Part shown: one piece after another, positions 1,903 to 42,296 of the stretch
Layout of the letters: every line of letters begins with the position of its first letter
Position numbering within the stretch: position 1 is the stretch's first letter
Assembly (NCBI RefSeq): GCF_019739195.1
Contig: NZ_JAHHDS010000003.1
Span: forward strand, 1,736,001-1,800,000
From: Microcella sp.
Lineage (GTDB): Bacteria > Actinomycetota > Actinomycetes > Actinomycetales > Microbacteriaceae
DNA length: 64,000 nucleotides
Direction of reading: 5' to 3'
The notes under the pieces: model-generated
Seen by the model: only the letters and a program-made list of their open reading frames with translations
The model's database searches: none
Told to the model about the DNA's origin: nothing
Translations under genes and position numbers: made by a program

Positions 1903-1964
1903 GAAATTTGACGACGCGGGAAAGCGGCGAGCCACGGAATGCCCACAATATGGAGGGGCCCCTT

Positions 1965-3179
1965 ATGACGGAGCTTCGAGACGTCGTATTCTGTTCGCCG
2001 GTGCGAACACCAGTCGGACGTTTCGGTGGCGCGTTGGCGACCCTTGATGCCCGAGCGCTGGCACGCACCGCGCTTACCGCGCTCGTCGAGCGTTCCGGTC
2101 TCGATGTCGATGCGGTCGACGGTGTCGTTATGGCCCAGAGCTACCCAACGATGGAGGCCCCGGCCATAGGGCGAGTTGCTGCTCTGGATGCCGGACTACC
2201 GGTCACCACAGCTGGTTATCAGCTCGACAGGAGGTGCGGATCGGGTCTTCAGGCCGTGTTGAACGCCGCGATGGAAATCCAGACCGGCGTGAGCGAGGTC
2301 GTCATTGCTGCAGGTGTGGAATCCATGAGCAACGCGCCTCTATACAGCGAACAGGGGCGACGGGGGGTAACCGGTCCTGGAATAATGCTCCATGACGCAC
2401 TCGTGCGTGGACGGTTGACGGCAGGCGGCGAGAATTTTCCTACGCCTGATGGCAATATCGGAGGGGCTGAAGTTCTGCGGCGACTGTACGGCATAACTCG
2501 CGACTCGCAGGACGAATTCGCCCTTCGGTCACACCAGCGCGCCGTGTCAGCTCAATCCTCCGGTGCGTTCGCAGCGGAAATCATCCCCGTGACGGTGCCC
2601 GGACGGCGCGGCGACACGGTCGTCGATAGGGACGAGAACCCGCGCGCGGACGCCTCGCTGGAGGCACTCGAAGCGCTCACTCCGATCATGCGAAACAAAG
2701 AGCCTGACGCCACAGTGACGGCCGGGAATTCGAGCGCACAGAACGATGCCGCCGCCGCTGTCATCGTCACCACGCCCGCACGCGCCCTCGAGTTGGGTCT
2801 CGTTCCCATGCTCCGACTTCGATCGTGGGCGGTCAGTGGAGTTGAACCTGAGCTGTTTGGAATCGGTCCCGTCGCTGCGACGCGGCAGGCGCTACAGCGT
2901 GCAGGCGCCCGACTTGTTGACCTGGATATCATCGAACTAAATGAGGCCTTCGCGGTGCAGGCAATCGCTTGTCTGCAGGACTGGAATGTGGACGCTGAGG
3001 ACCCACGGGTCAACCCACGTGGAAGCGGCATCTCCATCGGACATCCGATCGGCGCGACCGGAGTGCGAATCCTCGTCACACTCGCGCACGAAATGCGTGC
3101 ACTGGATGCGACTCTCGCAGTCGAAACGATGTGTATCGGCGGCGGTCAGGGCTTGGCGGCAGTCTTCGAAAGGGTGTAG
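1965..3179 (+). CDS. Acetyl-CoA acyltransferase (thiolase)
   Basis: This 404-residue protein is a full-length degradative thiolase. The nucleophilic cysteine lies in DRRCGSGLQAV (Cys91), the base histidine in GHPIGATG (His360) and the second cysteine in CIGGGQG (Cys390). It would cleave a 3-oxoacyl-CoA with CoA to acetyl-CoA (or propionyl-CoA) and a shortened acyl-CoA, or act in reverse. The ATG at 1965 follows GGAGGGG with suitable spacing. The gene stands alone under a promoter whose start region holds a MarR-type palindrome, so it is probably co-induced with the distant operons of the island. Chain-length preference is not visible. Confidence 0.92.
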   Translation: MTELRDVVFCSPVRTPVGRFGGALATLDARALARTALTALVERSGLDVDAVDGVVMAQSYPTMEAPAIGRVAALDAGLPVTTAGYQLDRRCGSGLQAVLNAAMEIQTGVSEVVIAAGVESMSNAPLYSEQGRRGVTGPGIMLHDALVRGRLTAGGENFPTPDGNIGGAEVLRRLYGITRDSQDEFALRSHQRAVSAQSSGAFAAEIIPVTVPGRRGDTVVDRDENPRADASLEALEALTPIMRNKEPDATVTAGNSSAQNDAAAAVIVTTPARALELGLVPMLRLRSWAVSGVEPELFGIGPVAATRQALQRAGARLVDLDIIELNEAFAVQAIACLQDWNVDAEDPRVNPRGSGISIGHPIGATGVRILVTLAHEMRALDATLAVETMCIGGGQGLAAVFERV

Positions 3180-5857: not shown

Positions 5858-5890
5858 TCGAAAAACAGTTAGATGGTGAAAGGATGCGCA

Positions 5891-7234
5891 ATGGCGAGAA
5901 TTCAGTCGGCCGCAGACGTCGCGGACATTGTCGAAGAGATCCGTTGGCAGGGCCTGTCGCCCGCCACCAAAGATGCAACAGTGCGCAGCACCCTGCATGT
6001 ACTGGGCACGACTTTTCTCGGCCTCGATCGCGACATCAGTCAACGCGTGATGGCGTACGCCCGGCACTCGGCGCCCGGGAAGGCGACCATGATCGCTAGT
6101 GGTGCCACCATCGCACCGGGCGATGCCGCGATGGCGAACGCGACAGTGTGCCACGCAGACTTCCGCGACGATGCTCACGTCGACAGCCAATCGCATCCCG
6201 GCGTCACCGTCATCCCCGCGGCGCTGGCCGCGTTCGAGATGCTCGGTGAGCCTCTCCCCGCTGGACGGTTCGGCGAAGCCGTCGTCGCTGGCTATCAGGT
6301 GATCGGCCGGCTCGGCCGACTGGGTGCCAACTCCTCCACTCCGCGGGGTTTTCGGGCAAGCGCGATCTACACCGTCTTCGGGGCAGCGGTCGCGGCCGCA
6401 AAGATTCTCGGTCTTGACCGAGCCCAGCTTGAATCTGCGATCACGCTGTCAACGCACCTAGCGGCCGGATTGAACCAGCCCTATCTCGACGGCACGGACG
6501 ACTGGATACTGCTTCCGGGGTTCGCCGCGAAGAACGGGCTCCTTGCTTCGCTTCTCGCGCGCGAGGGAATCGTGGGCGCGCCCCGCCTTCTCGAAGGCGA
6601 GATCGGCTTCTATCGTGCATACGGTGGGGTCGATCTCGCGGCCATCGTCGATCCCGATGAACCCGACTGGGAGATCGAGACGACACGACTTAAGACGGTC
6701 CTGACCTGCGGGTGGAATCAGGCAGCTGCGAACGCTCTGCTCCAAGCGGGTGTCGACTTCTCTAGCGTCGACACCATCGACATTTCGGTCAGCCCTGAGG
6801 CATTCGCGTTTCCCGGGGTTCACAACCAAGGCCCGTACGGGACGTATACAGCGGCGGTGCTGTCGATGGAGTTCGGGGTCGGTTCGCTGCTGCACGATGG
6901 GCGACTCGACGTGACGAGTTACCGCGACCTCGCGAATCCTGCACGCGTGGATGCGGCACACCGCGTCAACTTGAGCGCGTCTCCCGCGAATCGGGCCTAC
7001 GACACTGTCATCGATGTTCACCATCGAAACGGTTCTGTGCAATCGCTGACCTCGACGGGCACCGAGGCGCGGTGGCTCCTGACTGTGCCCGAGGTCATCG
7101 AGTCCTTGAGGGGCAAGTTCGCCGTGAGCGGCCTTGACCCAGCGATCATCGATGAACTCGTCAACGTGATTCCGCCGGCGCTCGAAGGCACCGACCTCAG
7201 TTCGATCCTAGAAATCTTGGGGCGACCCTTGTGA
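5891..7234 (+). CDS. MmgE/PrpD family protein
   Basis: This 447-residue protein belongs to the MmgE/PrpD family (2-methylcitrate dehydratase, cis-aconitate decarboxylase, iminodisuccinate epimerase). The typical active-site stretch is NATVCHADFRDDAHVDSQSHPGVTV, followed by FRASAIYTVFGAA and the TCGWNQ segment. Members dehydrate, epimerise or decarboxylate hydroxy- or polycarboxylates, so it may act on a carboxylated intermediate. GAAAGGA precedes the ATG at 5891; an upstream ATG at 5873 lacks a site. It overlaps the next gene by four bases (GTGA). A clear paralogue lies at 8012-9379 on the other strand. The substrate is unknown. Confidence 0.85.
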   Translation: MARIQSAADVADIVEEIRWQGLSPATKDATVRSTLHVLGTTFLGLDRDISQRVMAYARHSAPGKATMIASGATIAPGDAAMANATVCHADFRDDAHVDSQSHPGVTVIPAALAAFEMLGEPLPAGRFGEAVVAGYQVIGRLGRLGANSSTPRGFRASAIYTVFGAAVAAAKILGLDRAQLESAITLSTHLAAGLNQPYLDGTDDWILLPGFAAKNGLLASLLAREGIVGAPRLLEGEIGFYRAYGGVDLAAIVDPDEPDWEIETTRLKTVLTCGWNQAAANALLQAGVDFSSVDTIDISVSPEAFAFPGVHNQGPYGTYTAAVLSMEFGVGSLLHDGRLDVTSYRDLANPARVDAAHRVNLSASPANRAYDTVIDVHHRNGSVQSLTSTGTEARWLLTVPEVIESLRGKFAVSGLDPAIIDELVNVIPPALEGTDLSSILEILGRPL

Positions 7235-8011: not shown

Positions 8012-9379
8012 CTAGTCCGCTTCGCCGATCGCGGCGGCGAGGTTCGCTGTACTGCCCGTCTCGAGAAGGTTGGTCATGGCTGCGTCGAGAACGTCGACTC
8101 GAGATTCGTCCAACCCCGATGACGCGTAATTGCGGTGAAGTGCCTCCAGCACTCGCCCCCTGGTGTCTAGTGAGAACGCTGGATTGTCGTTGCCGTCGGC
8201 CGAGAAACGAGTCGTTCCATCGGTGAGGTCGATCGCGACTTCCGTGGCGTAGCCAGGCAGGTCGCCGGTCGGTGTCACATCGACACGGCGTGCGACCTCG
8301 AGCAACTCGGGGTCTTCGAGGTCGTCGTATCCGCTGTGGTCGAGTGACCCTCGCACAAGTTGCAGTGCGGCTGCCCACGGCGCGCTCAGCAATGCGGCAG
8401 ACCGGGAGGGAAACGGCCCGGCGCTTGCGACCCCCGGGTACTCTCCAGCGATCGTGCTCAGGCGAACACGTACGGCACTGACGTGGTCGGCCCGAACATT
8501 GAATTCACGAAGCTGGTGCACGAGCGACTGATTCCACCCGCAGGTGAGGGCCGCCTTCAGACGGGCTCGTTCGATCTCGAAACCACCATGTCCTGCAGGC
8601 CGGAGGTCCACTGGCAGAGTCTCGCCCGCGAAGGCGACGAAGACGCCCTCGGGCCCCTCCAACGCAAAGCGTGAACCCTCGACACCCTCAGCCGCGAGCA
8701 TCGCCGACATGACCGCGTGGCGCGCGGCAAGCGCGGGGGCGAGAAACCATTCATCCGACCCGGCTAGGAACGGATGGGTTATGCCGGATGCTCCCTGCGC
8801 AGCGATCGCCAGGGCATGAACTTGCTGTTCTTGCGTCAGGCCCATGGCTAGTGCGGCCGCCAGAGTGCCTCCGAAAACGGTGTACACAGAGGGTGGACGG
8901 AAGCCGCGCGCGGTTGTTCGCTCGGCTGCGGGCCCACCGAGTCGTCCGATGAGCTCGTGACCGGCCACGACAGCTTCCGCATAACGACCGGGTGGAAGCG
9001 TACCTCCCATCGCCTCGGCCACAGCGAACACGGCCGGGATCACCACGACCCCGGGATGGGAGGAGCTCCCCGCATGGGTGTCTTCTCGAAAGTCAGAGTG
9101 TGCAGCAACCGCATTCGCAAACGCCGCACCCGCACAAGTGCCCGATCGCTTGCCATGCGCCACGATGGTCGCGGCGCTTCCCGATTCCCACTTCGCTGTG
9201 TACTCGACGGAGTCTCGCCCTATTGGGTTCTGCAGTCCCAGCCTCATGACTCCGAATACCTGGAGAGAGTTTCGCGCCACGGAGTCTCGCGTGGAGTCGG
9301 GGAGGCTTTTCGCCGAGATGTCGGCGAGGAGCTCCACCAACACTTCGGCGAGCGAATCAGACTTCGGTGCTCGTGTCAT
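8012..9379 (-). CDS. MmgE/PrpD family protein (paralogue)
   Basis: This 455-residue protein is a second MmgE/PrpD member. The same signature regions appear: NAVAAHSDFREDTHAGSSSHPGV, FRPPSVYTVFGGT and LTCGWNQS. It resembles the protein at 5891-7234 along its whole length, so the two arose by duplication or form a hetero-oligomer. AAGGAG lies eight bases before the ATG. It is convergent with the crotonase gene (seven-base gap) and divergent from the large carboxylase operon. The actual reaction, for instance dehydration or epimerisation of a carboxylic acid, cannot be assigned. Confidence 0.85.
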   Translation of the reverse strand: MTRAPKSDSLAEVLVELLADISAKSLPDSTRDSVARNSLQVFGVMRLGLQNPIGRDSVEYTAKWESGSAATIVAHGKRSGTCAGAAFANAVAAHSDFREDTHAGSSSHPGVVVIPAVFAVAEAMGGTLPPGRYAEAVVAGHELIGRLGGPAAERTTARGFRPPSVYTVFGGTLAAALAMGLTQEQQVHALAIAAQGASGITHPFLAGSDEWFLAPALAARHAVMSAMLAAEGVEGSRFALEGPEGVFVAFAGETLPVDLRPAGHGGFEIERARLKAALTCGWNQSLVHQLREFNVRADHVSAVRVRLSTIAGEYPGVASAGPFPSRSAALLSAPWAAALQLVRGSLDHSGYDDLEDPELLEVARRVDVTPTGDLPGYATEVAIDLTDGTTRFSADGNDNPAFSLDTRGRVLEALHRNYASSGLDESRVDVLDAAMTNLLETGSTANLAAAIGEAD

Positions 9380-9466
9380 CGTGATCTCCTTCAGCGACGG
9401 TCGCCATCGACTCGTCTGAGAGATAGTTTAGGGGCAAATCGAGTTCGCAGTCATGGAAAGACATGC

Positions 9467-9518
9467 TGTTCAAATGCCTGCCTTGACAGCGATGCGTGCA
9501 CTCCTTTACCTTTGAACA
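9467..9518 (+). promoter_or_regulatory. Promoter of carboxylase operon flanked by inverted arms
   Basis: TTGACA (9483-9488) and TACCTT (9507-9512) are spaced by 18 bases. The core is bracketed by perfectly inverted eight-base arms, TGTTCAAA (9467-9474) and TTTGAACA (9511-9518), 36 bases apart. One arm lies upstream of the -35 box and the other overlaps the -10 box and start, a layout fitting a dimeric or looping regulator. The arms differ from the island's usual operator, so the IclR protein is one candidate. Confidence 0.5.
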
Positions 9519-9553
9519 ATTCTGACTACGTGGTCGATCGAGGAAGGCGAGCA

Positions 9554-10708
9554 ATGCCTCTACAGCTGACCGGTCGCCAGCTAGCCTTTCGCGAAGAGCT
9601 TCGCGCCTTCTACACCGACAAGGTCGAGCCTGGCTGGCGCGAGCGATATGACTCGTTCGAGGACCTGGGCGCGTATCTTCGCGACTGGGAGCAGGTGCTC
9701 GCCTCGAGAGACTGGGCCGTCCCCACGTGGCCAGAAGAGTACGGTGGCCGTGGTGCCGACGCGGTCGAGCGGGCGATCTTCACTGAAGAAACTGCGCGGT
9801 TTGACGCGCCCGAGGGACTGAATCGTCTCGGAAAGAGGCTTGTCGCTCCGGTGCTGTGGCAGTTCGGCACCCCTGAGCAACAACAGCACCTCGCGCGCAT
9901 CCGCACGGGTGACGAACTGTGGTGTCAGGGCTTCTCAGAACCGTCAGCCGGATCCGACCTCGTGAACATCCGCACGACAGCACAGCGCGTTTCGGACGAG
10001 TGGGTCATCAATGGCCGAAAGATCTGGACGAGCTTCGCACAGTTCGCCGACTGGATTATCTTGCTTGTCCGCACGGGGCCTGCAGACTCGCGCGCAGACG
10101 GAATCTCCGTGCTGCTCGTCGACCTTCTCACCCCAGGCATTGAGATCAGCCCGATCATCACCATGTCGGGCCATGCCGAGTTCAACGAGGTTTCCTTCAA
10201 CGACGTCAGGGTCCCTGCCGCCAATCTCGTGGGTGAAGAAAACGCGGGTTGGTCCATCGTCCGGAGCGTCTTGCAGGACGAGAGGGGGGCCGATTACTGC
10301 TTGGCACGGTATTCCGACATTCGGCGCATCTTTGACGATGTCGTCTCGACGGCACGCGAGCTCCCGGCGGAGCACCGTGCAGTCGCGCACCTTGGCGCAG
10401 ATTACGCACGCGTGTACGCCATTCAAGTGCTTGCATCCGACTTGCTCGAGCGTGGTCAGAATCGCACCGCTCCTGAAGGACTCGAGTCTCTCGTGAAGCT
10501 CTACACCACCGAGACGTGGCGCACGATGGGTGATGACCAGCTGCGTTGGTGGGGTGCACCCTACTTCACCGAGGGTCCCAAAGAACGCCTGCACGATCAG
10601 GCAGAATCTCGCCACTTCACCATTTCGGCTGGCACGAGTGAGATCCAGCGCAACTTGATCGCCAGTCGACTGCTCGAGTTGCCCAGCGGTCGCAAGAAGG
10701 TGGCGTGA
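9554..10708 (+). CDS. Acyl-CoA dehydrogenase, FadE29/ChsE2-like subunit
   Basis: The 384-residue protein is an acyl-CoA dehydrogenase with WCQGFSEPSAGSDLVNIRTTA, WIINGRKIWTS-type beta domain and ISAGTSEIQRNLIASRLL near the C-terminus. The glutamate that usually precedes GT in the C-terminal motif is replaced by alanine, as seen in subunits of heteromeric dehydrogenases of steroid side-chain breakdown. The next gene encodes a shorter partner, so an alpha2beta2 enzyme is inferred. It would desaturate an acyl-CoA, probably branched or ring-linked, passing electrons to the ETF encoded at 27589-29336. GGAAGG precedes the ATG at 9554; the frame continues far upstream only as antisense of the PrpD-like gene. 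Confidence 0.88.
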   Translation: MPLQLTGRQLAFREELRAFYTDKVEPGWRERYDSFEDLGAYLRDWEQVLASRDWAVPTWPEEYGGRGADAVERAIFTEETARFDAPEGLNRLGKRLVAPVLWQFGTPEQQQHLARIRTGDELWCQGFSEPSAGSDLVNIRTTAQRVSDEWVINGRKIWTSFAQFADWIILLVRTGPADSRADGISVLLVDLLTPGIEISPIITMSGHAEFNEVSFNDVRVPAANLVGEENAGWSIVRSVLQDERGADYCLARYSDIRRIFDDVVSTARELPAEHRAVAHLGADYARVYAIQVLASDLLERGQNRTAPEGLESLVKLYTTETWRTMGDDQLRWWGAPYFTEGPKERLHDQAESRHFTISAGTSEIQRNLIASRLLELPSGRKKVA

Positions 10709-10709
10709 C

Positions 10710-11789
10710 ATGCTCCTCACGACCTTGCTTGACGACCATCTCGATGCTGAGGCGGCAGACGTGCTCGGCTACTGGTCCGACTTGCTCGAGGAGATCGGTG
10801 GTCCTCGTCTTGGACCAGACGAAACGCCCGAGTTTCTCACGATGAGCCAGACACTTGCAGTCATTCGAGACCAAGGTTGGCTGGATTTCGCCCTCGACGG
10901 CGACACCCAATCCTTACTGTACTTCGAGGCCATCAAGCGACTTCACCGCCGCGACCTGCCCCTGCCCGTTCCGATCGTTGAGATCTGGAGCGCCATGCGG
11001 TTGCTCCGTCGACTCAATACCCCCCAGGCGAATGAAATCCTCGAGTCGTGTGTCGTCGGTGAGAGCATTCCGGTACTGGCAGTCGCCTCTGCGTTCGAGC
11101 CGGGAGACAGCGGCTGGGTTCCCTTCGGTGCCGATGTCACGGTGATTCTGGCGATCGACAGCCGTGACGGCCTCGACTTCGAAGCGATCAGGCCGGGCGT
11201 GGGTGACCGAGTGCCGGCCAACGACCCAGACCCCACTCTGGCGGCTGTAAAGGTCACCGGTGCTGGCGAATCGCTCGGAGGACTCGACGGACCGGAGAGC
11301 GATCGGTTCCGCGCCGAACTCCTTGTCGCACAGTCCGCTGCGATCGCTGGACAGTCACAAGCGTTGCTCGAGTCGACGATGGCCTACGTCAGCGCGCGAG
11401 AGCAGTTCGGGGTGCCAGTCGGCTCGTTCCAGGCACTTCGACACCGGTCCGCAGACCTCGCGACCGATGTCTATGCCGCCCAGCAGATGAGTATCCATGC
11501 CGCTGATCAACTCCCCACTCATGGCGAGCCGTCTGCGCTCGGCCACTTGGCGAAAGCCTTTGTGGGAAGCGCCGGACTGCGCATGGGGAGTGAAGCGATT
11601 CAGCTCCATGGCGGTATGGGATTCACCTGGGAAGGCGGGGTGCACTTCGGATTCAAGCGAATCCAGCATCATGCGATGACCGGACCCACGGTCGGCCAGT
11701 GCGAAGAATGGCTTGGTCGGTGGGCAGTGGATGCCCCCGCCACTCTGTGGGCAGGCGGCCTCGATGAGGCAGAAGGCGATGCAAGATGA
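10710..11789 (+). CDS. Acyl-CoA dehydrogenase, FadE28/ChsE1-like partner subunit
   Basis: This 359-residue protein has a weakly conserved N-terminal half and a clear C-terminal acyl-CoA dehydrogenase domain (YVSAREQFGVPVGSFQALRHRSADLATD, AIQLHGGMGFTWEGGVHFGFKRIQHH). It lacks the GTxEIQR motif at the end, as the smaller subunit of heteromeric dehydrogenases does. Starting one base after the upstream subunit's stop, it should be the obligate partner completing the FAD sites. It overlaps the BCCP gene by four bases. A second such pair is split between 17594-18694 and 21374-22594. Confidence 0.82.
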   Translation: MLLTTLLDDHLDAEAADVLGYWSDLLEEIGGPRLGPDETPEFLTMSQTLAVIRDQGWLDFALDGDTQSLLYFEAIKRLHRRDLPLPVPIVEIWSAMRLLRRLNTPQANEILESCVVGESIPVLAVASAFEPGDSGWVPFGADVTVILAIDSRDGLDFEAIRPGVGDRVPANDPDPTLAAVKVTGAGESLGGLDGPESDRFRAELLVAQSAAIAGQSQALLESTMAYVSAREQFGVPVGSFQALRHRSADLATDVYAAQQMSIHAADQLPTHGEPSALGHLAKAFVGSAGLRMGSEAIQLHGGMGFTWEGGVHFGFKRIQHHAMTGPTVGQCEEWLGRWAVDAPATLWAGGLDEAEGDAR

Positions 11790-12289
11790 ACGAACAGGAA
11801 GACCACTCCTTGAACAACAGTATTGAGTTGAGCGACATCACGGCAATTATCGACCTGTTGAAAGCATCGGGCTGGCGTGAGGCGCGATTGCGGTTCGGCG
11901 ACTTCGAGTTGCAGCTCTCGGATTCCGGAGTCGGGCTGGGCGTTGCGCAATCTGCCCCCGCACCAGTAGCGTCGACGACTCCCGCCGCTGTCTCTCCACC
12001 GACCGTCTCAGAGTCGTCGACGGCCGCCCCGATCACTGCTTCGGCACATGAGCACATCGTGCGGGCGAAGTCTCTTGGAGTGTTCTGGAGAGCTCCGCAG
12101 CCGGGGGCTCCCTCGTTCGTCGAGGTCGGGGACGAGGTTGAGCCCGACTCTCCACTGGCGATCGTTGAAGTCATGAAGATGATGACTCGCGTCGAGCCCG
12201 GCGTTCGGGGTACTGTCACCGGAATCCACGTCGAAAACGGCCAGGTCGTGGAATTCGATCAGCCGCTCCTCACTATTGCGATGCTCTGA
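11786..12289 (+). CDS. Biotin carboxyl carrier protein
   Basis: The 167-residue protein has an acetyl-CoA-carboxylase-type N-terminal part (DITAIIDLLKASGWREARLRFGDFELQLS), an alanine/proline/serine linker and a C-terminal biotinyl domain with the EVMKMM motif, where Lys131 carries biotin. It shuttles CO2 between the biotin carboxylase (12301-13674) and the carboxyltransferase (13667-15121). Its ATG overlaps the end of the upstream dehydrogenase gene. That it is dedicated to this operon, rather than to fatty-acid synthesis, is inferred from the context. Local biotin need is matched by bioY at 33029-33619. Confidence 0.92.
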   Translation: MNEQEDHSLNNSIELSDITAIIDLLKASGWREARLRFGDFELQLSDSGVGLGVAQSAPAPVASTTPAAVSPPTVSESSTAAPITASAHEHIVRAKSLGVFWRAPQPGAPSFVEVGDEVEPDSPLAIVEVMKMMTRVEPGVRGTVTGIHVENGQVVEFDQPLLTIAML

Positions 12290-12300
12290 GCGACTCAGTA

Positions 12301-13674
12301 ATGACCCCCATCCATCGCCTACTTGTGGCCAACCGCGGCGAGATCGCTGTGCGAATCATCCGTGCGGCGTTCGACGAAGGAATCGAGACCGTCGCCGTCA
12401 TCAGCGATGCCGATCGCGACTCGCTCGCGGCCAAAATGGCTGACCGCGCGGTCGTGATCGGACCAGCTCAAGCCAGTGCGAGCTACCTCTCTGTCGAAGC
12501 TGTCGTCAATGCGGCTATCGCGACTGGCTGCGACGCAGTTCACCCCGGATACGGTTTTTTGAGCGAGCGCCCAGAGCTGGCGCTCGCTTGTGACGAGAAC
12601 GGGCTCACATGGGTCGGTCCCTCTGTCGATAGCTTGCGAAGGGGCGGTGACAAGTCCACCGCTCGCACCCTCGCAAAGTCACTCGGTATCCCAGTGGCCG
12701 AAGGCGTCGAGCCGTCCTCCGATGCAGAGGGACTGCTGGAACACGTGCGTGCGATCGGTTACCCGGTGCTTATCAAGGCATCGGCCGGGGGCGGAGGACG
12801 CGGCATGCGTCTCGTCGCTGATGAAGCCGCCCTTCTGAGCGCAATCGAGCAGGGCGGCAGAGAAGCGCAGGAGGCATTCGGCGACGGGCGGGTGTTCGTC
12901 GAGCGATTTGTCGAGCGTGGCCGACATGTCGAAGTGCAGATATTGGGCGACGGGCGAGGCGGTGTGATCCATCTCGGAGAACGTGACTGCTCCGTTCAGC
13001 GTCGCTATCAGAAGATCGTTGAGGAAGCACCTGCGTTCGGCCTGAGCGACGAGCTGCGCAACGGGCTTCACGCCAGCGCTGTAGCGCTGGGGCGCGAATT
13101 GAACTACCTCGGCGCCGGTACCGTGGAATTCCTCGTCGATGTCGTGCGCGGCGACTACTTCTTCCTGGAGATCAACACCCGGGTGCAGGTTGAGCATCCG
13201 GTGACCGAGATGGTCACTGGGATCGACATCGTTCGTCAGCAGTTGCGTCTTGCCCAAGGAGCGGAACTGCCTGACCAAGAAGACATCGTGGTGAGAGGTC
13301 ACGCTATCGAGTGTCGCCTGACGTCAGAAGACCCCGCCCGGGACTTCATGCCCACGCCGGGGCGCGTGACCGAGTGGGTCGCTCCACAGGGCACCGATGT
13401 TCGGGTTGACACCCATTTGTTCCCCGGCTACATCGTGCCTCCGTACTACGACTCGCTGTTGGCCAAGATCATCGTGCGCGGCGCGAATCGTGAAGAGGCG
13501 ATCGCGACGACTTCTCGCGCCCTTCAGCGAGTGCGGGTTGACGGAATCAGCACGAACCTTTCGCTTCTCGAAGCCGTAGTGACTGATCCGGCATTCGCGG
13601 CAATGGGAGTCACGACCCGTTGGCTCGAAGCGGACTTTATGCCTAAGTGGTCAGATGGGGGCTCACATGGCTGA
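12301..13674 (+). CDS. Biotin carboxylase subunit
   Basis: The 457-residue protein is a full biotin carboxylase: LLVANRGEIAVRIIRA at the start, HPGYGFLSER, the ATP-grasp glycine loop KASAGGGGRGMR, ERDCSVQRRYQKIVEEAPA and the active-site EINTRVQVEHPVTEM. It uses ATP and bicarbonate to carboxylate biotin on the carrier protein. The last eight bases overlap the carboxyltransferase gene, so the three parts form one split enzyme. The final residues (GGSHG) are shaped by that overlap. No ribosome site is obvious before the ATG, eleven bases after the BCCP stop. Confidence 0.93.
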   Translation: MTPIHRLLVANRGEIAVRIIRAAFDEGIETVAVISDADRDSLAAKMADRAVVIGPAQASASYLSVEAVVNAAIATGCDAVHPGYGFLSERPELALACDENGLTWVGPSVDSLRRGGDKSTARTLAKSLGIPVAEGVEPSSDAEGLLEHVRAIGYPVLIKASAGGGGRGMRLVADEAALLSAIEQGGREAQEAFGDGRVFVERFVERGRHVEVQILGDGRGGVIHLGERDCSVQRRYQKIVEEAPAFGLSDELRNGLHASAVALGRELNYLGAGTVEFLVDVVRGDYFFLEINTRVQVEHPVTEMVTGIDIVRQQLRLAQGAELPDQEDIVVRGHAIECRLTSEDPARDFMPTPGRVTEWVAPQGTDVRVDTHLFPGYIVPPYYDSLLAKIIVRGANREEAIATTSRALQRVRVDGISTNLSLLEAVVTDPAFAAMGVTTRWLEADFMPKWSDGGSHG

Positions 13675-15121
13675 GATCGAGTTTCTTGATCAGACCCTGC
13701 GAGACGGACAACAGAGTCTGTGGGGAATGAAGATGCGCGCGGCGCATATCTTGCCCGTTGCCGACGAGTTCCCCAAAGCGGGCTTCCTCTCCGCCGAGCT
13801 GACCGGCACGACGATTCAGTCGCTGCTCGTGCGCGACTTCAAAGAGAACCCATACGAGGGACTCGACTTAGTGACGAGTCGAATGCCCGGCATGGTGTTG
13901 CGCGCGGGCATGCGACCCGACACGGCCAACTTCAGCCTGCAGCCCTACTCCGTGATTGATCTCTCGGTCAGCGTCATGATGAAACACGGCATCAACAGCT
14001 TCTGGTTCTTCGACTGCCTCTACAACATCGACAAGATGGAGCGCCTAGGCGAGGTCGTCTCGAGCTTGGGTGCGGAGTCGGTCCCGACCGCGACGTATGC
14101 GGAGAGCCCTGTTCACACAGACGAGTTCTTCGCCGACAAGATCCGTGAGTTTGCCAGTTGGAGGCACACCGATGCGATCATGCTGGCTGACGAGGCCGGT
14201 GTGCTCACTCCCGATCGCGCTCGGACTCTTCTGCCAGCCATCATCGAAGCGGCGAACGGTGTTCCGATCGAGCTGCATGTTCACAACACCACCGGCCTAG
14301 CCCCGCTTATCTACTTGATGGGAATCGAACTCGGCATCACGAGAATTCACACGGCTTCGCGTCCACTGGCTAACGGTTCCTCGCTTCCCTCGACAGAAGT
14401 TATGCATGAGAACGTGACGGAACTCGGCCACACAACGCGCCTAGACCTCACGGCGATCGATCGCATCTCTGAACACTTTGAATACGTCGGCAAGCGCGAG
14501 GGATACCGGCTCGGAGCTGTCGAGGAGTTCCGCGTAAAGACATTCACCGAGCAGATGCCGGGCGGCATGATGGGCACACTGAGGGCTCAGCTCAGCACTC
14601 ACGGAATGGAGCATCGGCTTCAGGAAGTGCTCGACGAAGGGGCGCGGGTGCGCGCGGAGTTTGGCTATCCGGTCATGGCGACGCCATTCTCGCAGTTCAT
14701 CGGCACACAGTCCGTGCTCAACATCACAACCGGTGAACGCTACGGACTCGTCACCGATGAAGTCATCTTGTACGCGCTAGGCCGCTTTGGTACCCCGCCA
14801 GCGCCGATGGACGAGAACGCGCGAGACAAGATTCTCGGCCACAAGAGAGCGAAAGAGCTTGCCGCTTGGGAGTTGCCTCAGCCGAGTCTCAAGGAGCTTC
14901 GTCAGCAGCACGGAATCCACCTCACTGACGAGGAACTGCTGTTGCGCATTCTCGTTCCCGGTCCTGCGGTCGATGCGATGATCGCGGCTGGGCCCGTGCA
15001 GACTGCGTATCCGAAGCGCGACGAGCATCCGCTCATCCTTGCCCTTCGCGACGCCGCGGCATCTCGCGCACAGTCGGTTCACGTGCGTAAAGGCGAACTC
15101 GACATCCAGCTTCATCGATAG
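13667..15121 (+). CDS. Divergent pyruvate-carboxylase/OADA-type carboxyltransferase
   Basis: The 484-residue protein has the TIM barrel of the pyruvate carboxylase/oxaloacetate decarboxylase alpha family: FLDQTLRDGQQSLWGMKMR (Asp13, Gln16), the metal pair ELHVHNTTG (His204, His206), EQMPGGMMGTL and TPFSQFIGTQSVLN. The lysine that is carboxylated and binds the metal in true pyruvate carboxylases (IKDMAG) is alanine here (MLADEAG, Ala174), and the HTHD aspartate is asparagine. These changes suggest a different substrate from pyruvate, although family chemistry (carboxylation next to a keto group, giving a beta-keto acid) probably holds. The ATG at 13667 follows GGGG. The next gene encodes a beta-keto acid cleavage enzyme. 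Confidence 0.82.
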   Translation: MAEIEFLDQTLRDGQQSLWGMKMRAAHILPVADEFPKAGFLSAELTGTTIQSLLVRDFKENPYEGLDLVTSRMPGMVLRAGMRPDTANFSLQPYSVIDLSVSVMMKHGINSFWFFDCLYNIDKMERLGEVVSSLGAESVPTATYAESPVHTDEFFADKIREFASWRHTDAIMLADEAGVLTPDRARTLLPAIIEAANGVPIELHVHNTTGLAPLIYLMGIELGITRIHTASRPLANGSSLPSTEVMHENVTELGHTTRLDLTAIDRISEHFEYVGKREGYRLGAVEEFRVKTFTEQMPGGMMGTLRAQLSTHGMEHRLQEVLDEGARVRAEFGYPVMATPFSQFIGTQSVLNITTGERYGLVTDEVILYALGRFGTPPAPMDENARDKILGHKRAKELAAWELPQPSLKELRQQHGIHLTDEELLLRILVPGPAVDAMIAAGPVQTAYPKRDEHPLILALRDAAASRAQSVHVRKGELDIQLHR

Positions 15122-15130
15122 GGGACACCC

Positions 15131-15955
15131 ATGCAACCGCTCATCATCAATGCTGCAATCTCGGGCTCGCTCAATAAAGATGCCATGCCAAACCTTCCGA
15201 AAGACCCGGAAGACATCGGAAGGATGGCGATCGAGGTCTGGCAAGCAGGCGCGTCGATCGTGCACATTCACGCCAAGGACGACAACGGCGTGCATTCGGG
15301 CGACGTTCAGTACTTCAAGCGTGCGGTCGACTACATCAAGGAGCACGACAGCGACATACTGATCAATCTCACGACCAGTTTCACTGGCTCCAACGTCGAC
15401 GATTGGGAGACGCGATTCTCGCCCCTTACCCTGTCGCCCGACATCGCTTCCTATGACGCAGGAACGATGAACTTCAACGAGCACGTGTTCTACAACAAGC
15501 CCGAGTTCCTTCGGGAGCTGGCGAAGAAGATGCAGCAGCACGGAGTGAAGCCGGAGATCGAAATCTTCGACACCGGACAGATCGGCAACGCTGTGCGATA
15601 CGCCGAAGAGGGATTGATTGATGACCCCTTGTACATGCAGTTCGTTCTCGGCGTGAATGGGGGAGCCCCGGCGACGGCGAAGCATCTCGTGCACTTGGTC
15701 GAGAGTCTGCCGAAGGGTGCGATTTGGTCTGTGGCGGGAATCGGCCGGCACCAGTTGCCGATGGATGTGCTGGCCATCCTCATGGGTGGTCATGCGCGCA
15801 CGGGTCTAGAAGACAACTGGTACTACGAAAAGGGCGTCTTGGCGACAAACAAGCAGCTCGTCGAGCGTCTCGCCGGACTTGCGAAGACATTCGGGCGAGA
15901 GGTCGCAACCCCGTCGCAAGCACGTGAGATTCTCGGCCTCCCGGCGAGCTCATGA
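15131..15955 (+). CDS. Beta-keto acid cleavage enzyme (BKACE, DUF849)
   Basis: The 274-residue protein belongs to the family of 3-keto-5-aminohexanoate cleavage enzyme. Visible are VHIHAKD with zinc ligands His45 and His47, GIGRHQLPM (Arg206) and GGHARTGLEDN with Glu227. The family splits a beta-keto acid with acetyl-CoA into acetoacetate and a new acyl-CoA. It follows the carboxyltransferase gene by nine bases with an AGGGG ribosome site and overlaps the next crotonase gene. The pairing with a carboxylase that should make a beta-keto acid is the main clue to its job. The substrate side chain is unknown; carnitine-type and other substrates occur in the family. Confidence 0.88.
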   Translation: MQPLIINAAISGSLNKDAMPNLPKDPEDIGRMAIEVWQAGASIVHIHAKDDNGVHSGDVQYFKRAVDYIKEHDSDILINLTTSFTGSNVDDWETRFSPLTLSPDIASYDAGTMNFNEHVFYNKPEFLRELAKKMQQHGVKPEIEIFDTGQIGNAVRYAEEGLIDDPLYMQFVLGVNGGAPATAKHLVHLVESLPKGAIWSVAGIGRHQLPMDVLAILMGGHARTGLEDNWYYEKGVLATNKQLVERLAGLAKTFGREVATPSQAREILGLPASS

Positions 15956-16728
15956 ACACCTTCTCAACCCATCTGCGTGAGGGCGTTCTCACTGGACTGA
16001 TGAATCGCCCGAGGGTGCACAACGCCCTCGACAGCGAACTTCGCGCGGCGCTCGCCGGTTTCTGGGATCGAGTCCGCGAAGACGATGAGGTGAAAGTCGC
16101 CGTCATCGCAGGAGTCCCTGGTTCATCCTTCAGTTCTGGTCGCGACATGAAAGAAACCGCCGAAGCGTACCAACAAGCTCAGACGGGTCCTGACTGGGAG
16201 CTCGGTGGTCGTACAGGCTATCCCGTCGATACCCCCCCGGGTAAGCCAGTTATTGCGGCGATCGACGGATACTGCATGGGTGCGGGTCTCAAGATGGCGG
16301 CTGAGTGCGACCTGAGGATAGCGGCGACGAGCGCCATCTTCGGCAGTCCGCAGGCAAAGGTGGGCAGGGCAACCGAGAGTCCGCTGTATCTGCGACGCAT
16401 CGGGGTGCCGGCGGCGGTTGCACTGGACATGGTTTTCACCGGTCGCAGACTAGACGCTCAGGAAGCCCTGCACTACGGCCTCGTCAGTCGCGTCGTGGGG
16501 CCGAACAGCTTGCTCGATGAGGCTTACGCGATGGCCAGCATCATCGCCGCGTTCTCTCCGACTGTTGTGGCCGGGCTGAAGCGCGGGCTTGACAGCGGAC
16601 TGGGCGACCTGCCGTCGGCTGTCGCCTCACCGCTGTGGAAGTCGGTGACGGCAATGTACGGTGACACCCCAGATGCCCGCAAGGGCGCGGAAGCATTCGT
16701 CAATCGTCCGCGCGGTCAAGAGGACTAG
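15952..16728 (+). CDS. Crotonase-fold protein lacking both hydratase glutamates
   Basis: The 258-residue protein has the crotonase fold (NRPRVHNALDS, GSSFSSGRDM, DGYCMGAGLKMAAECD, FGSPQAKVG). At the two positions held by catalytic glutamates in enoyl-CoA hydratases it has Lys114 and Gln134. It is therefore unlikely to be a normal hydratase; crotonase relatives with altered residues act as decarboxylases, hydrolases or C-C hydrolases. Its ATG overlaps the BKACE stop, so it belongs to the same step sequence. It ends convergently with the SMP-30 gene, the two stop codons sharing CTAG. The reaction is unassigned. Confidence 0.82.
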   Translation: MNTFSTHLREGVLTGLMNRPRVHNALDSELRAALAGFWDRVREDDEVKVAVIAGVPGSSFSSGRDMKETAEAYQQAQTGPDWELGGRTGYPVDTPPGKPVIAAIDGYCMGAGLKMAAECDLRIAATSAIFGSPQAKVGRATESPLYLRRIGVPAAVALDMVFTGRRLDAQEALHYGLVSRVVGPNSLLDEAYAMASIIAAFSPTVVAGLKRGLDSGLGDLPSAVASPLWKSVTAMYGDTPDARKGAEAFVNRPRGQED

Positions 16729-18860: not shown

Positions 18861-19718
18861 ATGGCGCAGATGCTGGTCAATGATGACTTCGAGATTGGAC
18901 TTGTGAGTCGGTGGACTCCCGAGGCCGAATCCGTCGTGCGCCATGAAGCCATCGTCGCGTACTCAGAGGCGATTGGTGAGACCGACGAGCGTATGCTCCG
19001 CGGAGAAGTATCGCCCTTGATGTACGGCGTCGTTCCGTCCTGGCGTCACATCGTTGACCAGTTCAACGCGGTGATTCCGCCATCCGGCCATGGGCGACAA
19101 GTGCATGGCGAACACGTGATCACTTCCCCTCGGCCGCTCCGCCCCGGAGACATACTTCAGACGCGCGCCCGCCTCGTCGGCGTCAAGCCGACATCCAAGG
19201 GGTCAGTGGTGGCTATCGAGGCGGAGTCCCGTTCGACTCAGGGTGAACTTCTCGTTCACCAGGTCAGCACTGCCTTCGTGATCGGCGTCATCGCGAACGC
19301 GGGCGTTGGAGAACTGCCAACGAATCCGGCGGCTTTTCGCTCGTCCCGAACCCAGGTCGTCGAGATGCCGACGGACCTCGGCCTCCCCGCGCGGTACGCG
19401 TCTGCATCGGGAGACGACTCCCCGATACACCTCGACGATGACGCAGCGAAGGCGATCGGGCTCCCCGGCGTGATACTGCACGGCATGTGCTCGCTCGCGC
19501 TCGCTGGTCGTGCGGTTGTGAGCGCGGTCGGGGGAGGTGACCCGACGCAGCTGCGCCGGCTCGGCTGTCGCTTCACGGGCGTTGCGTTTCCTGGGGATCC
19601 GATCGTGGTCGAGGTCAGTGGGAGCGGGCAGGTGGCGCGGTTCTCGGCGGCTGACGCAGATGGACGTCAGGTTCTTTCGTCAGGACAAGCTTCCATCGGC
19701 GCGCCAGCGGCGGGATAG
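18861..19718 (+). CDS. MaoC-like enoyl-CoA hydratase (double hot-dog)
   Basis: The 285-residue protein carries an N-terminal FAS1-type dehydratase half (FEIGLVSRWTPE, HGEHVITSPRPLRPGDIL) and a C-terminal MaoC half with the catalytic pattern ASGDDSPIHLDDDAAKAIGLPGVILHG. It should hydrate an enoyl-CoA to a 3-hydroxyacyl-CoA. It opens an operon with a thiolase-like protein and a DUF35 protein, the same trio used for retro-aldol cleavage in steroid side-chain degradation, so a branched enoyl-CoA giving a tertiary alcohol is plausible. The ATG lies seven bases after the -10 box, so no ribosome site is expected. Confidence 0.86.
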   Translation: MAQMLVNDDFEIGLVSRWTPEAESVVRHEAIVAYSEAIGETDERMLRGEVSPLMYGVVPSWRHIVDQFNAVIPPSGHGRQVHGEHVITSPRPLRPGDILQTRARLVGVKPTSKGSVVAIEAESRSTQGELLVHQVSTAFVIGVIANAGVGELPTNPAAFRSSRTQVVEMPTDLGLPARYASASGDDSPIHLDDDAAKAIGLPGVILHGMCSLALAGRAVVSAVGGGDPTQLRRLGCRFTGVAFPGDPIVVEVSGSGQVARFSAADADGRQVLSSGQASIGAPAAG

Positions 19719-19728
19719 GAGAGACCTC

Positions 19729-20937
19729 ATGCGCGGAGCCTTGCAGCGAGAAGTCGCGATAGCCGGAATCGGACTCAGCGACTATCCCGTGGCACCCGGA
19801 ATGACGAGCGAGCAGCACGCCGCACTTGCATTCCGGCGTGCCCTCGACGACAGCGGACTCACGAAAGCAGACGTGGACGGCTTCTTCAGCGCCGGCGACG
19901 CGCTTCCTCACTTCGAAGACGCAGAAAACCTCGCTGAGTATCTCGGTATCCAGCCTCGATACTTCGACAGTACCTTCACCGGCGGATCGGCCTTCGAGGT
20001 ACTTCTCCAGCACGCGGCTCTGGCGATCGCGGCCGGCGAGTGCGAAGTGGCACTGATCGTCTACGGATCGGATGCACGCAGTCGTCATAAGCGCGGGCTC
20101 GGCGCCAAAGGCCTCGCACCAACCACGTACCTGTTTGATCAGCCGCAGTCCGGGCCGAGGCGGCAAGGAAACGCTGCGGCTTTCGAAGCTCCCTGGGGCA
20201 GCTCGATCATCAGTTCATACGCGCTTGCGGCTCAGCGGCACATGTATGAGTACGGAACGACGAGTGCCCAACTCGCTGAAATCGCGGTGGCAATGCGCTA
20301 CAACGCTCAGTTCAATCCGAATGCAATGTACCGAGACCCGCTGAGCGTGGAGGAAGTACTCGCTTCTCCCATGCTGGCTGACCCGTTGCATCGCTGGGAT
20401 TGTTGTGTGGTGTCAGACGGTGGAGGTGCGGTCATCATGACGAGCGGCGAGCGCGCGCGCGATCTCAAGACGACGCCGGTCTACGTGCTGGCTGCCAAGA
20501 ACGCCGCGACGCACTACAACATCGCGCAGATGCCCGACTACACCCAAACCGCCGCGGCGATGGTGGCCGACGACGTGTTCCGTGCTGCAGATGTCACCCG
20601 CGACGACATCGACACCCTGCAGATCTACGACAGTTTCACCATCACCGTCCTGCTCCAACTGGAAGATCTCGGGTTCGCCCCCAAGGGCGAGGGCGGGGCC
20701 TGGGTCTCTGACGGCAAGCTCAAGGTCGGTGGAGCATTGCCGACTAACACCGACGGGGGCGGCCTCAGCGCATGCCATCCCGGCATGCGCGGCATTTTCC
20801 TCATCATTGAGGCAACCCGGCAGCTGCGTCACGATGCGGGCGACGCGCAGACTCCCAATGCGCAGCTCGCACTCGTTTCTGGCAGCGGAGGAATCCTGTC
20901 CCATATCGGCGTCGCGATCCTCGGGAGGCAACCGTGA
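19729..20937 (+). CDS. Thiolase-like lipid-transfer (Ltp2-type) protein, probable retro-aldolase
   Basis: This 402-residue protein has the thiolase fold but no nucleophilic cysteine: the CxSG region reads STFTGGSAFE, with threonine at the cysteine position (Thr84). The IYDSFTITVLLQLEDLG segment and GGGLSACHPGMRG remain. Such proteins (SCP-x/Ltp2 type) partner with DUF35 proteins; Ltp2 of steroid-degrading actinobacteria is a retro-aldolase that splits a 3-hydroxyacyl-CoA into a ketone and an acyl-CoA. The neighbouring MaoC and DUF35 genes fit this role. ATAGGAGAG precedes the ATG at 19729; the longer upstream frame is out of phase with the MaoC gene and is rejected. Confidence 0.8.
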   Translation: MRGALQREVAIAGIGLSDYPVAPGMTSEQHAALAFRRALDDSGLTKADVDGFFSAGDALPHFEDAENLAEYLGIQPRYFDSTFTGGSAFEVLLQHAALAIAAGECEVALIVYGSDARSRHKRGLGAKGLAPTTYLFDQPQSGPRRQGNAAAFEAPWGSSIISSYALAAQRHMYEYGTTSAQLAEIAVAMRYNAQFNPNAMYRDPLSVEEVLASPMLADPLHRWDCCVVSDGGGAVIMTSGERARDLKTTPVYVLAAKNAATHYNIAQMPDYTQTAAAMVADDVFRAADVTRDDIDTLQIYDSFTITVLLQLEDLGFAPKGEGGAWVSDGKLKVGGALPTNTDGGGLSACHPGMRGIFLIIEATRQLRHDAGDAQTPNAQLALVSGSGGILSHIGVAILGRQP

Positions 20938-21377
20938 TGGGCAAGGAAGCGAACACCTCTGTGGAATTGAGGGCGTCCGACCGGGTTCTCCCGATGCCCG
21001 ATTCTGACAGCGCCGAGTATTGGGAGGGTCTTGCGCGCGGCGAACTTCGTCTGCAGCGGTGCACCGCTTGTGGCATCGCACAGTTCTATCCGCGCTCACT
21101 CTGCGCCACGTGCGGGGGCAGCGTTGAGTGGTTTGCCGCCACAGGAAAAGGCACGGTGCACACCTTCACGGTGGTGAGGACACATGGGGCAGAGCCGTTC
21201 CGCTCACTGGTGCCCTTCACGCTGGCCATCGTTGAACTCGAAGAGGGACCACGCATGATGACGAACCTTACGGGCATTGATCCCGACGACGTTCGGATCG
21301 ACCTCCCGGTCGAACTCGAACCCGTATCGGCAGGCGATATCACTCTGCCGTTCTTCACTCCGCGGGCAGACTCGTGA
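20934..21377 (+). CDS. DUF35/OB-fold zinc-ribbon partner of thiolase-like protein
   Basis: The 147-residue protein has a rubredoxin-like zinc ribbon (LQRCTACG, then LCATCGG) followed by an OB-fold (GTVHTFTVVRTHG, VPFTLAIVELEEGPRMMTNLTG). DUF35 proteins bind acyl-CoA and form complexes with thiolase-like partners; in Ltp2-type retro-aldolases the DUF35 part is required for activity. The start may be GTG 20934 or ATG 20937, both after GGGAGG and overlapping the upstream stop. Its own stop overlaps the start of the dehydrogenase gene. Confidence 0.87.
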   Translation: MMGKEANTSVELRASDRVLPMPDSDSAEYWEGLARGELRLQRCTACGIAQFYPRSLCATCGGSVEWFAATGKGTVHTFTVVRTHGAEPFRSLVPFTLAIVELEEGPRMMTNLTGIDPDDVRIDLPVELEPVSAGDITLPFFTPRADS

Positions 21378-33028: not shown

Positions 33029-33619
33029 TCACGAGGAGGCTCTGCGGTCAGCGAGCGTCCAGGCGCCTCGAATGAGACCGGCAGCGATGACGGCCTTGAT
33101 GGCGCCGCCGATCAAGAACGGAAAGAGACCAGCCTGGAGAGTCTGCTCGAGGTTCAAGCCGAGACTGAACGCGAGCCAGGGGAGTCCGAAGGCGAACACC
33201 ACGACGGTTCCTGCGCTCAACGACACCAGAGCGCCGAACCACCGCCGGTCCCAGCGACGTTCCGCGAGCCAGCCCGTGAGCGCGGCCGCTGCGATGAAGC
33301 CGAGAATGTAACCTCCGGTGGGCCCCACGATGACTCCCCATCCGCCCGTCTGGTCGCTGAACCACGGCACGCCCGCCATGCCCAGGAGCGCGTACACCGC
33401 GAGGGAGAGGGATCCCCGCGCTGCGCCGAGGGATGTTCCGACCAGCAGCACCGCCAGGGTCTGCCCGGTGATAGGTACGGGCCAGAGAGGCACCGAGACT
33501 TGAGCGAGTATCCCGGTAAATGCAGCGCCACCGACCACCAGGAGCGCGTTAGTGAGCACTGCTCGGCGGACGGCCCAGTCTGCGAGTGTGGCGGGAGCGG
33601 GGGCGGAAAGTGCGGTCAT
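33029..33619 (-). CDS. bioY: Biotin transporter BioY (ECF S-component)
   Basis: The 196-residue membrane protein has the BioY features: the early conserved VPLWPVPITGQTLAVLLVG, GMAGVPWFSDQTGGWGVIVGPTGGYILGF and a C-terminal FPFLIGGAIKAVIAAGL helix. BioY imports biotin alone or with an ECF energising module. AAAGGA lies before the ATG, which also overlaps the stop of the acyl-CoA ligase gene, so biotin uptake is tied to the catabolic operon. This fits the need of the biotin-dependent carboxylase at 11786-15121 for extra biotin. No bioMN genes are adjacent. Confidence 0.93.
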   Translation of the reverse strand: MTALSAPAPATLADWAVRRAVLTNALLVVGGAAFTGILAQVSVPLWPVPITGQTLAVLLVGTSLGAARGSLSLAVYALLGMAGVPWFSDQTGGWGVIVGPTGGYILGFIAAAALTGWLAERRWDRRWFGALVSLSAGTVVVFAFGLPWLAFSLGLNLEQTLQAGLFPFLIGGAIKAVIAAGLIRGAWTLADRRASS

Positions 33620-35202: not shown

Positions 35203-35321
35203 TGAAGCCCGACCACGTGGCCAGTGCGAAAGATCGTCACGAAAACTCCTTTGTTTCGCGTCACGCAGGCCGACCGGATGGCCTAGCGACACACCTGATT
35301 CTGCACTGAGAGGCAAAGCAT

Positions 35322-42254: not shown

Positions 42255-42296
42255 TCCTGCACACGCACACCATTCGTGAACGAGAGGAAATCACCC

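Follow-up and report, generated by a model that had tools for sequence, protein, structure and literature searches.

A biotin-dependent carboxyltransferase without the carboxylated lysine, encoded next to a beta-keto acid cleavage enzyme in Microcella sp.: a candidate route for ketone carboxylation and cleavage

Introduction

For Rhodococcus rhodochrous GD02, the enzyme HpeCBA is described as carboxylating the acetyl group of aryl ketones in an ATP-dependent reaction, with 4-phospho-acetovanillone and 4-phospho-acetophenone as substrates and Acv and Xcc as relatives (PMC9618137). HpeCBA requires the phosphorylated ketone, a kinase and a phosphatase being encoded in its cluster, and what it makes is passed on to a CoA ligase and a hydrolase (Hpe) or to VceA/VceB (Sphingobium SYK-6) (PMC9618137). 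Acetone and acetophenone carboxylases (Acx, Apc) also turn a ketone into a beta-keto acid, but are presented as members of other protein families that are not biotin enzymes (PMC5214803, PMC5543143). Here we describe an operon in a 64,000-nucleotide stretch of Microcella sp. (the window; assembly GCF_019739195.1, contig NZ_JAHHDS010000003.1, positions 1,736,001 to 1,800,000; genome of 2.88 Mb in 4 contigs), in which the genes of a biotin-dependent enzyme directly precede that of a beta-keto acid cleavage enzyme (BKACE). The window enzyme resembles HpeCBA, acvABCDEF of Sphingobium SYK-6 and XccBCA of Aromatoleum EbN1 in being a three-part biotin-dependent enzyme.

We give a probability of roughly 0.55 to the reading that the carboxyltransferase (CT) of this operon is a ketone (or keto-acid) carboxylase that hands a beta-keto acid to BKACE. 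The biotin carboxylase (BC) would use bicarbonate and ATP to load CO2 onto the biotin carboxyl carrier protein (BCCP), and the divergent CT would carboxylate the carbon beside a carbonyl (R-CO-CH3 to R-CO-CH2-COO-, where R may bear an acid group). BKACE would then convert R-CO-CH2-COO- and acetyl-CoA to R-CO-CoA and acetoacetate, so that a separate acyl-CoA ligase and thiolase would not be needed at this step, and R-CO-CoA would enter beta-oxidation via acyl-CoA dehydrogenases (ACADs) and an enoyl-CoA hydratase (ECH). A sequence-only reading of the window had called such a module new. Since biotin enzymes that carboxylate ketones are already in the literature (Hpe, Acv, Xcc; PMC9618137), the principle is not new; what is new here is the coupling to BKACE and a CT without the carboxylated lysine. 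Neither a biotin carboxylase-BKACE pairing or CT-BKACE operon nor a lysine-free CT class was found among the best matches in the open-licence literature.

The operon

The genes are real, consecutive and overlapping or nearly so, and the names they had been given from the letters alone agree with their Pfam and NCBIfam domains. Seven open reading frames (ORFs), spaced from a 20-base overlap to an 11-base gap, form a single tight operon on the + strand at 9554-16728 (ORF list and Pfam):

9554-10708, + strand: ACAD (Pfam), within ORF 8957-10708
10710-11789, + strand: second ACAD-like protein (Pfam, C-terminal domain only)
11786-12289, + strand: BCCP (Biotin_lipoyl, 3.8e-17), biotinylation motif MKM at residues 130-132
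12301-13674, + strand: BC subunit (Biotin_carb_N; CPSase_L_D2, 1.2e-71; Biotin_carb_C)
13655-15121, + strand: PYC/OadA/5S-type CT (PYC_OADA, 5.8e-28; HMGL-like, 4.1e-11)
15131-15955, + strand: BKACE (PF05853, 6.9e-94)
15952-16728, + strand: ECH, enoyl-CoA hydratase/isomerase family (ECH_1, 3.1e-38)

The top NCBIfam model is the pimeloyl-CoA dehydrogenase large subunit for the first ACAD (score far under the cut-off) and IpdE2 and PimD for the second (both under their cut-offs).

The carboxyltransferase active site

The window CT combines an HMGL-like TIM barrel with a PYC_OADA domain, and its predicted model (predicted local distance difference test, pLDDT, 87.1; predicted template modelling score, pTM, 0.86) best matches the solved CTs 5ks8, 1rqh/1rqb and 2nx9. 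It shares with pyruvate carboxylase, OadA and transcarboxylase 5S the fold, the Asp-His-His metal residues (D17 and the HxH pair H208 and H210) and the substrate Arg, Thr and Ser. It differs from them, at 22-29% identity, at the metal-ligating carboxylated lysine: KDMAG has become ADEAG, with Ala (A178) at the lysine position and Glu (E180) two residues on, where Met stands in KDMAG. A geranyl/methylcrotonyl-type acyl-CoA carboxylase was rejected because the CT is of the PYC type; enzymes of that kind have a crotonase-fold CT.

In the pyruvate carboxylase of Lactococcus (LlPC), His732, His734, Arg533, Asp534 and carboxylysine 703 hold the metal, Arg606 contacts pyruvate, and the substrate and biotin sites include Thr867 and Ser870 (PMC9581989). 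These residues were mapped via the pyruvate carboxylase-like enzyme of the Microcella genome, along which Arg606 falls at the exact distance and the others one residue off throughout. Given that constant offset, Thr867 and Ser870 correspond to T343 and S346 of the window CT, and Arg606 to R87. Loss of the catalytic Thr, suspected from a PGGMMGT stretch, was dropped on the strength of these distances.

Could the CT carboxylate a 2-oxo acid, like pyruvate and 2-oxoglutarate carboxylases, with BKACE cleaving an oxalo-type beta-keto acid or serving elsewhere? R16, D17, Q20, R87, T343 and S346 all match the pyruvate carboxylase active site, with the roles described for LlPC (PMC9581989), so that the site gives opposing cues, the pyruvate-contacting R87 being kept and the carboxylated lysine lost. 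However, the lysine is gone clade-wide, the genome's sole other CT match is a separate pyruvate carboxylase-like ORF (25% identical) that has KDMAG, and the neighbours of the window CT are acyl-CoA and beta-keto acid genes. We regard the 2-oxo acid as a rather unlikely substrate and favor a ketone (or keto acid).

A clade of lysine-free carboxyltransferases

An alignment-based scan of species genomes gave 500 CT relatives, of which the loci of the nearest 79 were used together with loci from other genomes; removal of 9 duplicate rows took the set from 111 to 102 distinct CTs. The carboxylated lysine is missing in 94 of the 102 and present in the other 8. Its place is taken by Tyr in 51, Glu in 32, Gly in 9 and Ala in 2, the last two being the window CT and that of L044, a Rhodoglobus metagenome-assembled genome (MAG). 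In a quick tree that carries long-branch warnings, the lysine-free and lysine-bearing CTs are split by a branch with full support (SH-like approximate likelihood ratio test, SH-aLRT, 100), and the two Ala-type CTs pair with support 100. Pyruvate carboxylase, 5S-like and Hpe-like CTs fall outside the lysine-free clade in this tree. Within it, the catalytic Thr is kept in 94/94 rows, the biotin-contact Ser in 92/94 and the R87 equivalent in 94/94. Asn stands in place of the second metal His in every one of the 51 Tyr-type (YDT) rows and nowhere else in the clade, so that YDT-type CTs (e.g. L095, 10001-11455) may work without a metal.

Two further observations concern this clade. Four loci from Nanopelagicales and other actinobacterial MAGs (L029, L053, L059, L060) each hold two CTs of unlike type, GDEAG and YDTAG, in divergent orientation, with an AMP ligase for each. 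The CTs of four MAGs titled Klebsiella pneumoniae (L073, L082, L088, L114) cluster with those of other gammaproteobacterial MAGs, and these titles may be misassigned.

The closest counterpart of the published Hpe system is locus L025, in another genome from the family of the window's genome, with genes for BCCP, BC, CT, a HAD phosphatase, a phosphoenolpyruvate (PEP)-utiliser, PPDK_N, an AMP-binding protein and an amidohydrolase, a content resembling the published hpe table (PMC9618137). Its CT shares 37% identity with that of the window but keeps the lysine and has Thr in place of R87, and the window is therefore not classed as an Hpe system. The two CTs fall apart in the quick tree, which warns of long branches and in which L025 stands for the Hpe type. 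Neither the Hpe-type kinase (HpeHI) nor the phosphatase (HpeD) has a match within 8 kb of the window CT, and BLAST with L025 seeds found no kinase or phosphatase in the window. Membership in Hpe/Acv was not accepted, there being no kinase or phosphatase nearby.

Neighbourhoods of the lysine-free carboxyltransferases

Neighbours were counted within 8 kb of the CT in the 60 of 94 lysine-free loci that are flanked by 4 kb or more in both directions; 34 were excluded for too short a flank. A ligase-type gene lies near the CT in 53 of these loci, a thiolase in 35 and both in 33 (22/31 Tyr, 7/7 Gly, 4/20 Glu and 0/2 Ala), as compared with 0/5 for the pair near lysine-bearing CTs. An acyl-CoA ligase and a thiolase open a beta-keto acid in two steps, for which BKACE is the one-step equivalent. 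The chemistry proposed in the sequence-only reading, with a CT that makes a beta-keto acid and a BKACE that opens it, is thus the best-supported reading, because so many CT relatives lie near the alternative means of opening one. Pfam was run on two samples, L027 (ligase, thiolase, acetoacetate-decarboxylase-like protein) and L095 (ligase, pyruvate phosphate dikinase (PPDK)-like kinase, thiolase).

The same loci bear on the direction of the reaction. With one metal ligand known from pyruvate carboxylase (PMC9581989) gone, a lysine-free CT might be inactive or run as a decarboxylase. This we consider very improbable: a BCCP gene accompanies the CT in 53/60 loci and a BC gene in 52/60, the presence of BC implying ATP-driven carboxylation, and the catalytic Thr and biotin-contact Ser are nearly always kept. 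Carboxylation would thus be the working direction.

The window and L044 have neither a ligase nor a thiolase within 8 kb of the CT, and in both BKACE directly follows it. BKACE may therefore substitute for the ligase and thiolase in this branch.

A PPDK-like kinase stands near the CT in 30/31 full-flank YDT loci. YDT loci (L083, L095 and others) recurrently hold a PEP-utiliser (346 aa), a 518-aa protein, an AMP ligase, a 201-aa protein, a PPDK-like kinase, BCCP, BC, CT and a thiolase; the 518- and 201-aa proteins have no Pfam or NCBIfam match.

The cleavage enzyme and its pairing with the carboxyltransferase

PF05853 spans the full length of the window BKACE, a family whose chemistry is described in PMC11961710 and PMC6365646. 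The protein shares this domain and the zinc-site and catalytic residues with KCE and the 3-oxoadipate:acetyl-CoA enzyme, but reaches none of the four NCBIfam cut-offs, coming closest to those of KCE (314.6 against 382) and the 3-oxoadipate enzyme (232.3 against 350).

By alignment, H45, H47, R223 and E227 stand at what we take to be the zinc-site and catalytic residues His46, His48, Arg226 and Glu230 of KCE. Leu14 occupies the place of KCE Glu14, which, given the role we presume for that Glu, argues against an amino-group substrate.

CT and BKACE are rarely paired, being adjacent in 2 of the 94 lysine-free loci compared, the window and L044. A third BKACE near a lysine-free CT, in L109 (Chelatococcus), lies on the other strand and passes the cut-off of the 3,5-dioxohexanoate enzyme model. 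Counting the Microcella genome itself each time, CT matches occur in 4/60 genomes at E <= 1e-40 (none of the 25 others of the genus), 11/394 genomes of the class at 1e-50 and 4/398 of the family at 1e-90, and BKACE in 3/396 genomes of the phylum at 1e-60. The contigs of the two other, more distant phylum BKACEs (41 and 45%) span just 9.7 and 8.0 kb and carry no CT. When 60 relatives of L044 were searched, its own genome alone had a BKACE.

L044 preserves the order of 15 window genes, from the first MmgE to a short-chain dehydrogenase/reductase (SDR), its counterparts being 50-76% identical, and the arrangement is therefore more than chance. The CTs are 74% identical, the BKACEs about 68-69% and the second ACADs 54%. 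The shared block includes:

5873-7234, + strand: MmgE/PrpD family protein (L044 counterpart 60% identical)
8012-9379, - strand: second MmgE/PrpD family protein (L044 counterpart 58% identical)

The binding-protein gene (PBP) of the window also has a 57% counterpart in L044, but in a different position, after ECH1, and on the other strand. Between ECH0 and MmgE2, L044 additionally carries an SDR gene and a 278-aa ORF. The idea that relatives share the pairing thus holds in part: it is absent from the 25 same-genus genomes and not adjacent in 92/94 CT loci, and it recurs in L044 with shared gene order.

Alternatively, CT and BKACE may belong to one catabolic operon and act in separate steps, the BKACE substrate coming from another source. 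In the deoxyribonate pathway, for example, BKACE follows a dehydrogenase (PMC6365646), and several acyl-CoA enzymes are encoded in the operon. Yet in each of the two loci with the pair, CT and BKACE directly adjoin, and a ligase and thiolase stand near the CT in many relatives. Separate steps seem unlikely to us, and we prefer a hand-over of the beta-keto acid from CT to BKACE.

A possible source of the ketone

The ketone may derive from a pair of proteins encoded 4.6 kb downstream, whose solved relatives include 6ok1 (Ltp2-ChsH2) and 9myr. These genes, and one for a possible upstream step, are:

18861-19718, + strand: MaoC-type hydratase, possible upstream step (Pfam)
19732-20937 (start provisional), + strand: SCP2-thiolase-like protein with a YDSF motif, a relative of Ltp2/Sal
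20934-21377, + strand: DUF35-type partner (zinc ribbon and OB domain of ChsH2)

The subunit layout of Ltp2/ChsH2, a thiolase-like subunit plus a DUF35 partner, is present in the window, and the L044 counterparts are 76% and 62% identical. The YDSF motif keeps the Tyr base of the YDHF/YDCY motif, with Ser where His or Cys stands, and the alignment places no Tyr at the Tyr344 position. Because the Tyr base is kept and other catalytic residues named for Ltp2-type enzymes (PMC12329534) are not, it is possible, judging from these residues, that the pair is a retro-aldolase releasing a ketone.

At L038 (5260-12208), a KDSGG CT has as neighbours an acetaldehyde dehydrogenase, a DmpG-type aldolase and a thiolase-like/DUF35 pair, whose two members share 46% and 40% identity with those of the window. 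The window also encodes a relative of the acetone/acetophenone carboxylases, a second and unrelated type of ketone carboxylase (42276-46597: a Hydantoinase_A gene, then Hydantoinase_B fused to Acetone_carb_G, with a PTE-family gene next). HyuB was not found in the L044 genome, in a search without a positive control.

Discussion

Several points weigh against a ketone carboxylase that feeds BKACE. We know of no activity for any lysine-free CT. The R87 equivalent, kept in all lysine-free rows and Thr in the Hpe-like CT, leans to a substrate with an acid group. The ligase-thiolase pair is missing in 27/60 loci, mostly of the Glu type (16/20), which often carry cyclase and ECH-type genes instead (9/20 each); ligases and thiolases are, besides, common in catabolic regions. 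The sole control for the neighbour counts is the five lysine-bearing loci, and labels other than those of the two Pfam samples are phmmer similarities to single seeds. The window has a thiolase (1908-3179) and an AMP-binding ligase (33616-35316) further off. No PPDK-like kinase was found near the window CT, nor a full-length match in its genome with the one query kinase used. Since the window CT is not sister to the Gly-type group in the tree, that BKACE has replaced the ligase and thiolase is something we infer.

More tentatively, the lysine-free CTs might be a ketone-carboxylating biotin CT class of their own. The YDT type (51/94), which has lost both the lysine and the second metal His, would then use an enol phosphate or other phosphorylated ketone made with ATP in place of metal-assisted enolisation, as its nearby PPDK-like kinase suggests. 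The window branch, which keeps Asp-His-His and has a Glu near the lost lysine, would follow a kinase-free and ligase-free route of retro-aldol cleavage, carboxylation and BKACE.

If the proposed route is true, it would allow a methyl ketone or keto acid to be used with no need for an oxygenase or for a separate beta-keto acid ligase and thiolase. It would also define a widespread class of CTs that lack, at the active site, the carboxylated lysine known from pyruvate carboxylase.

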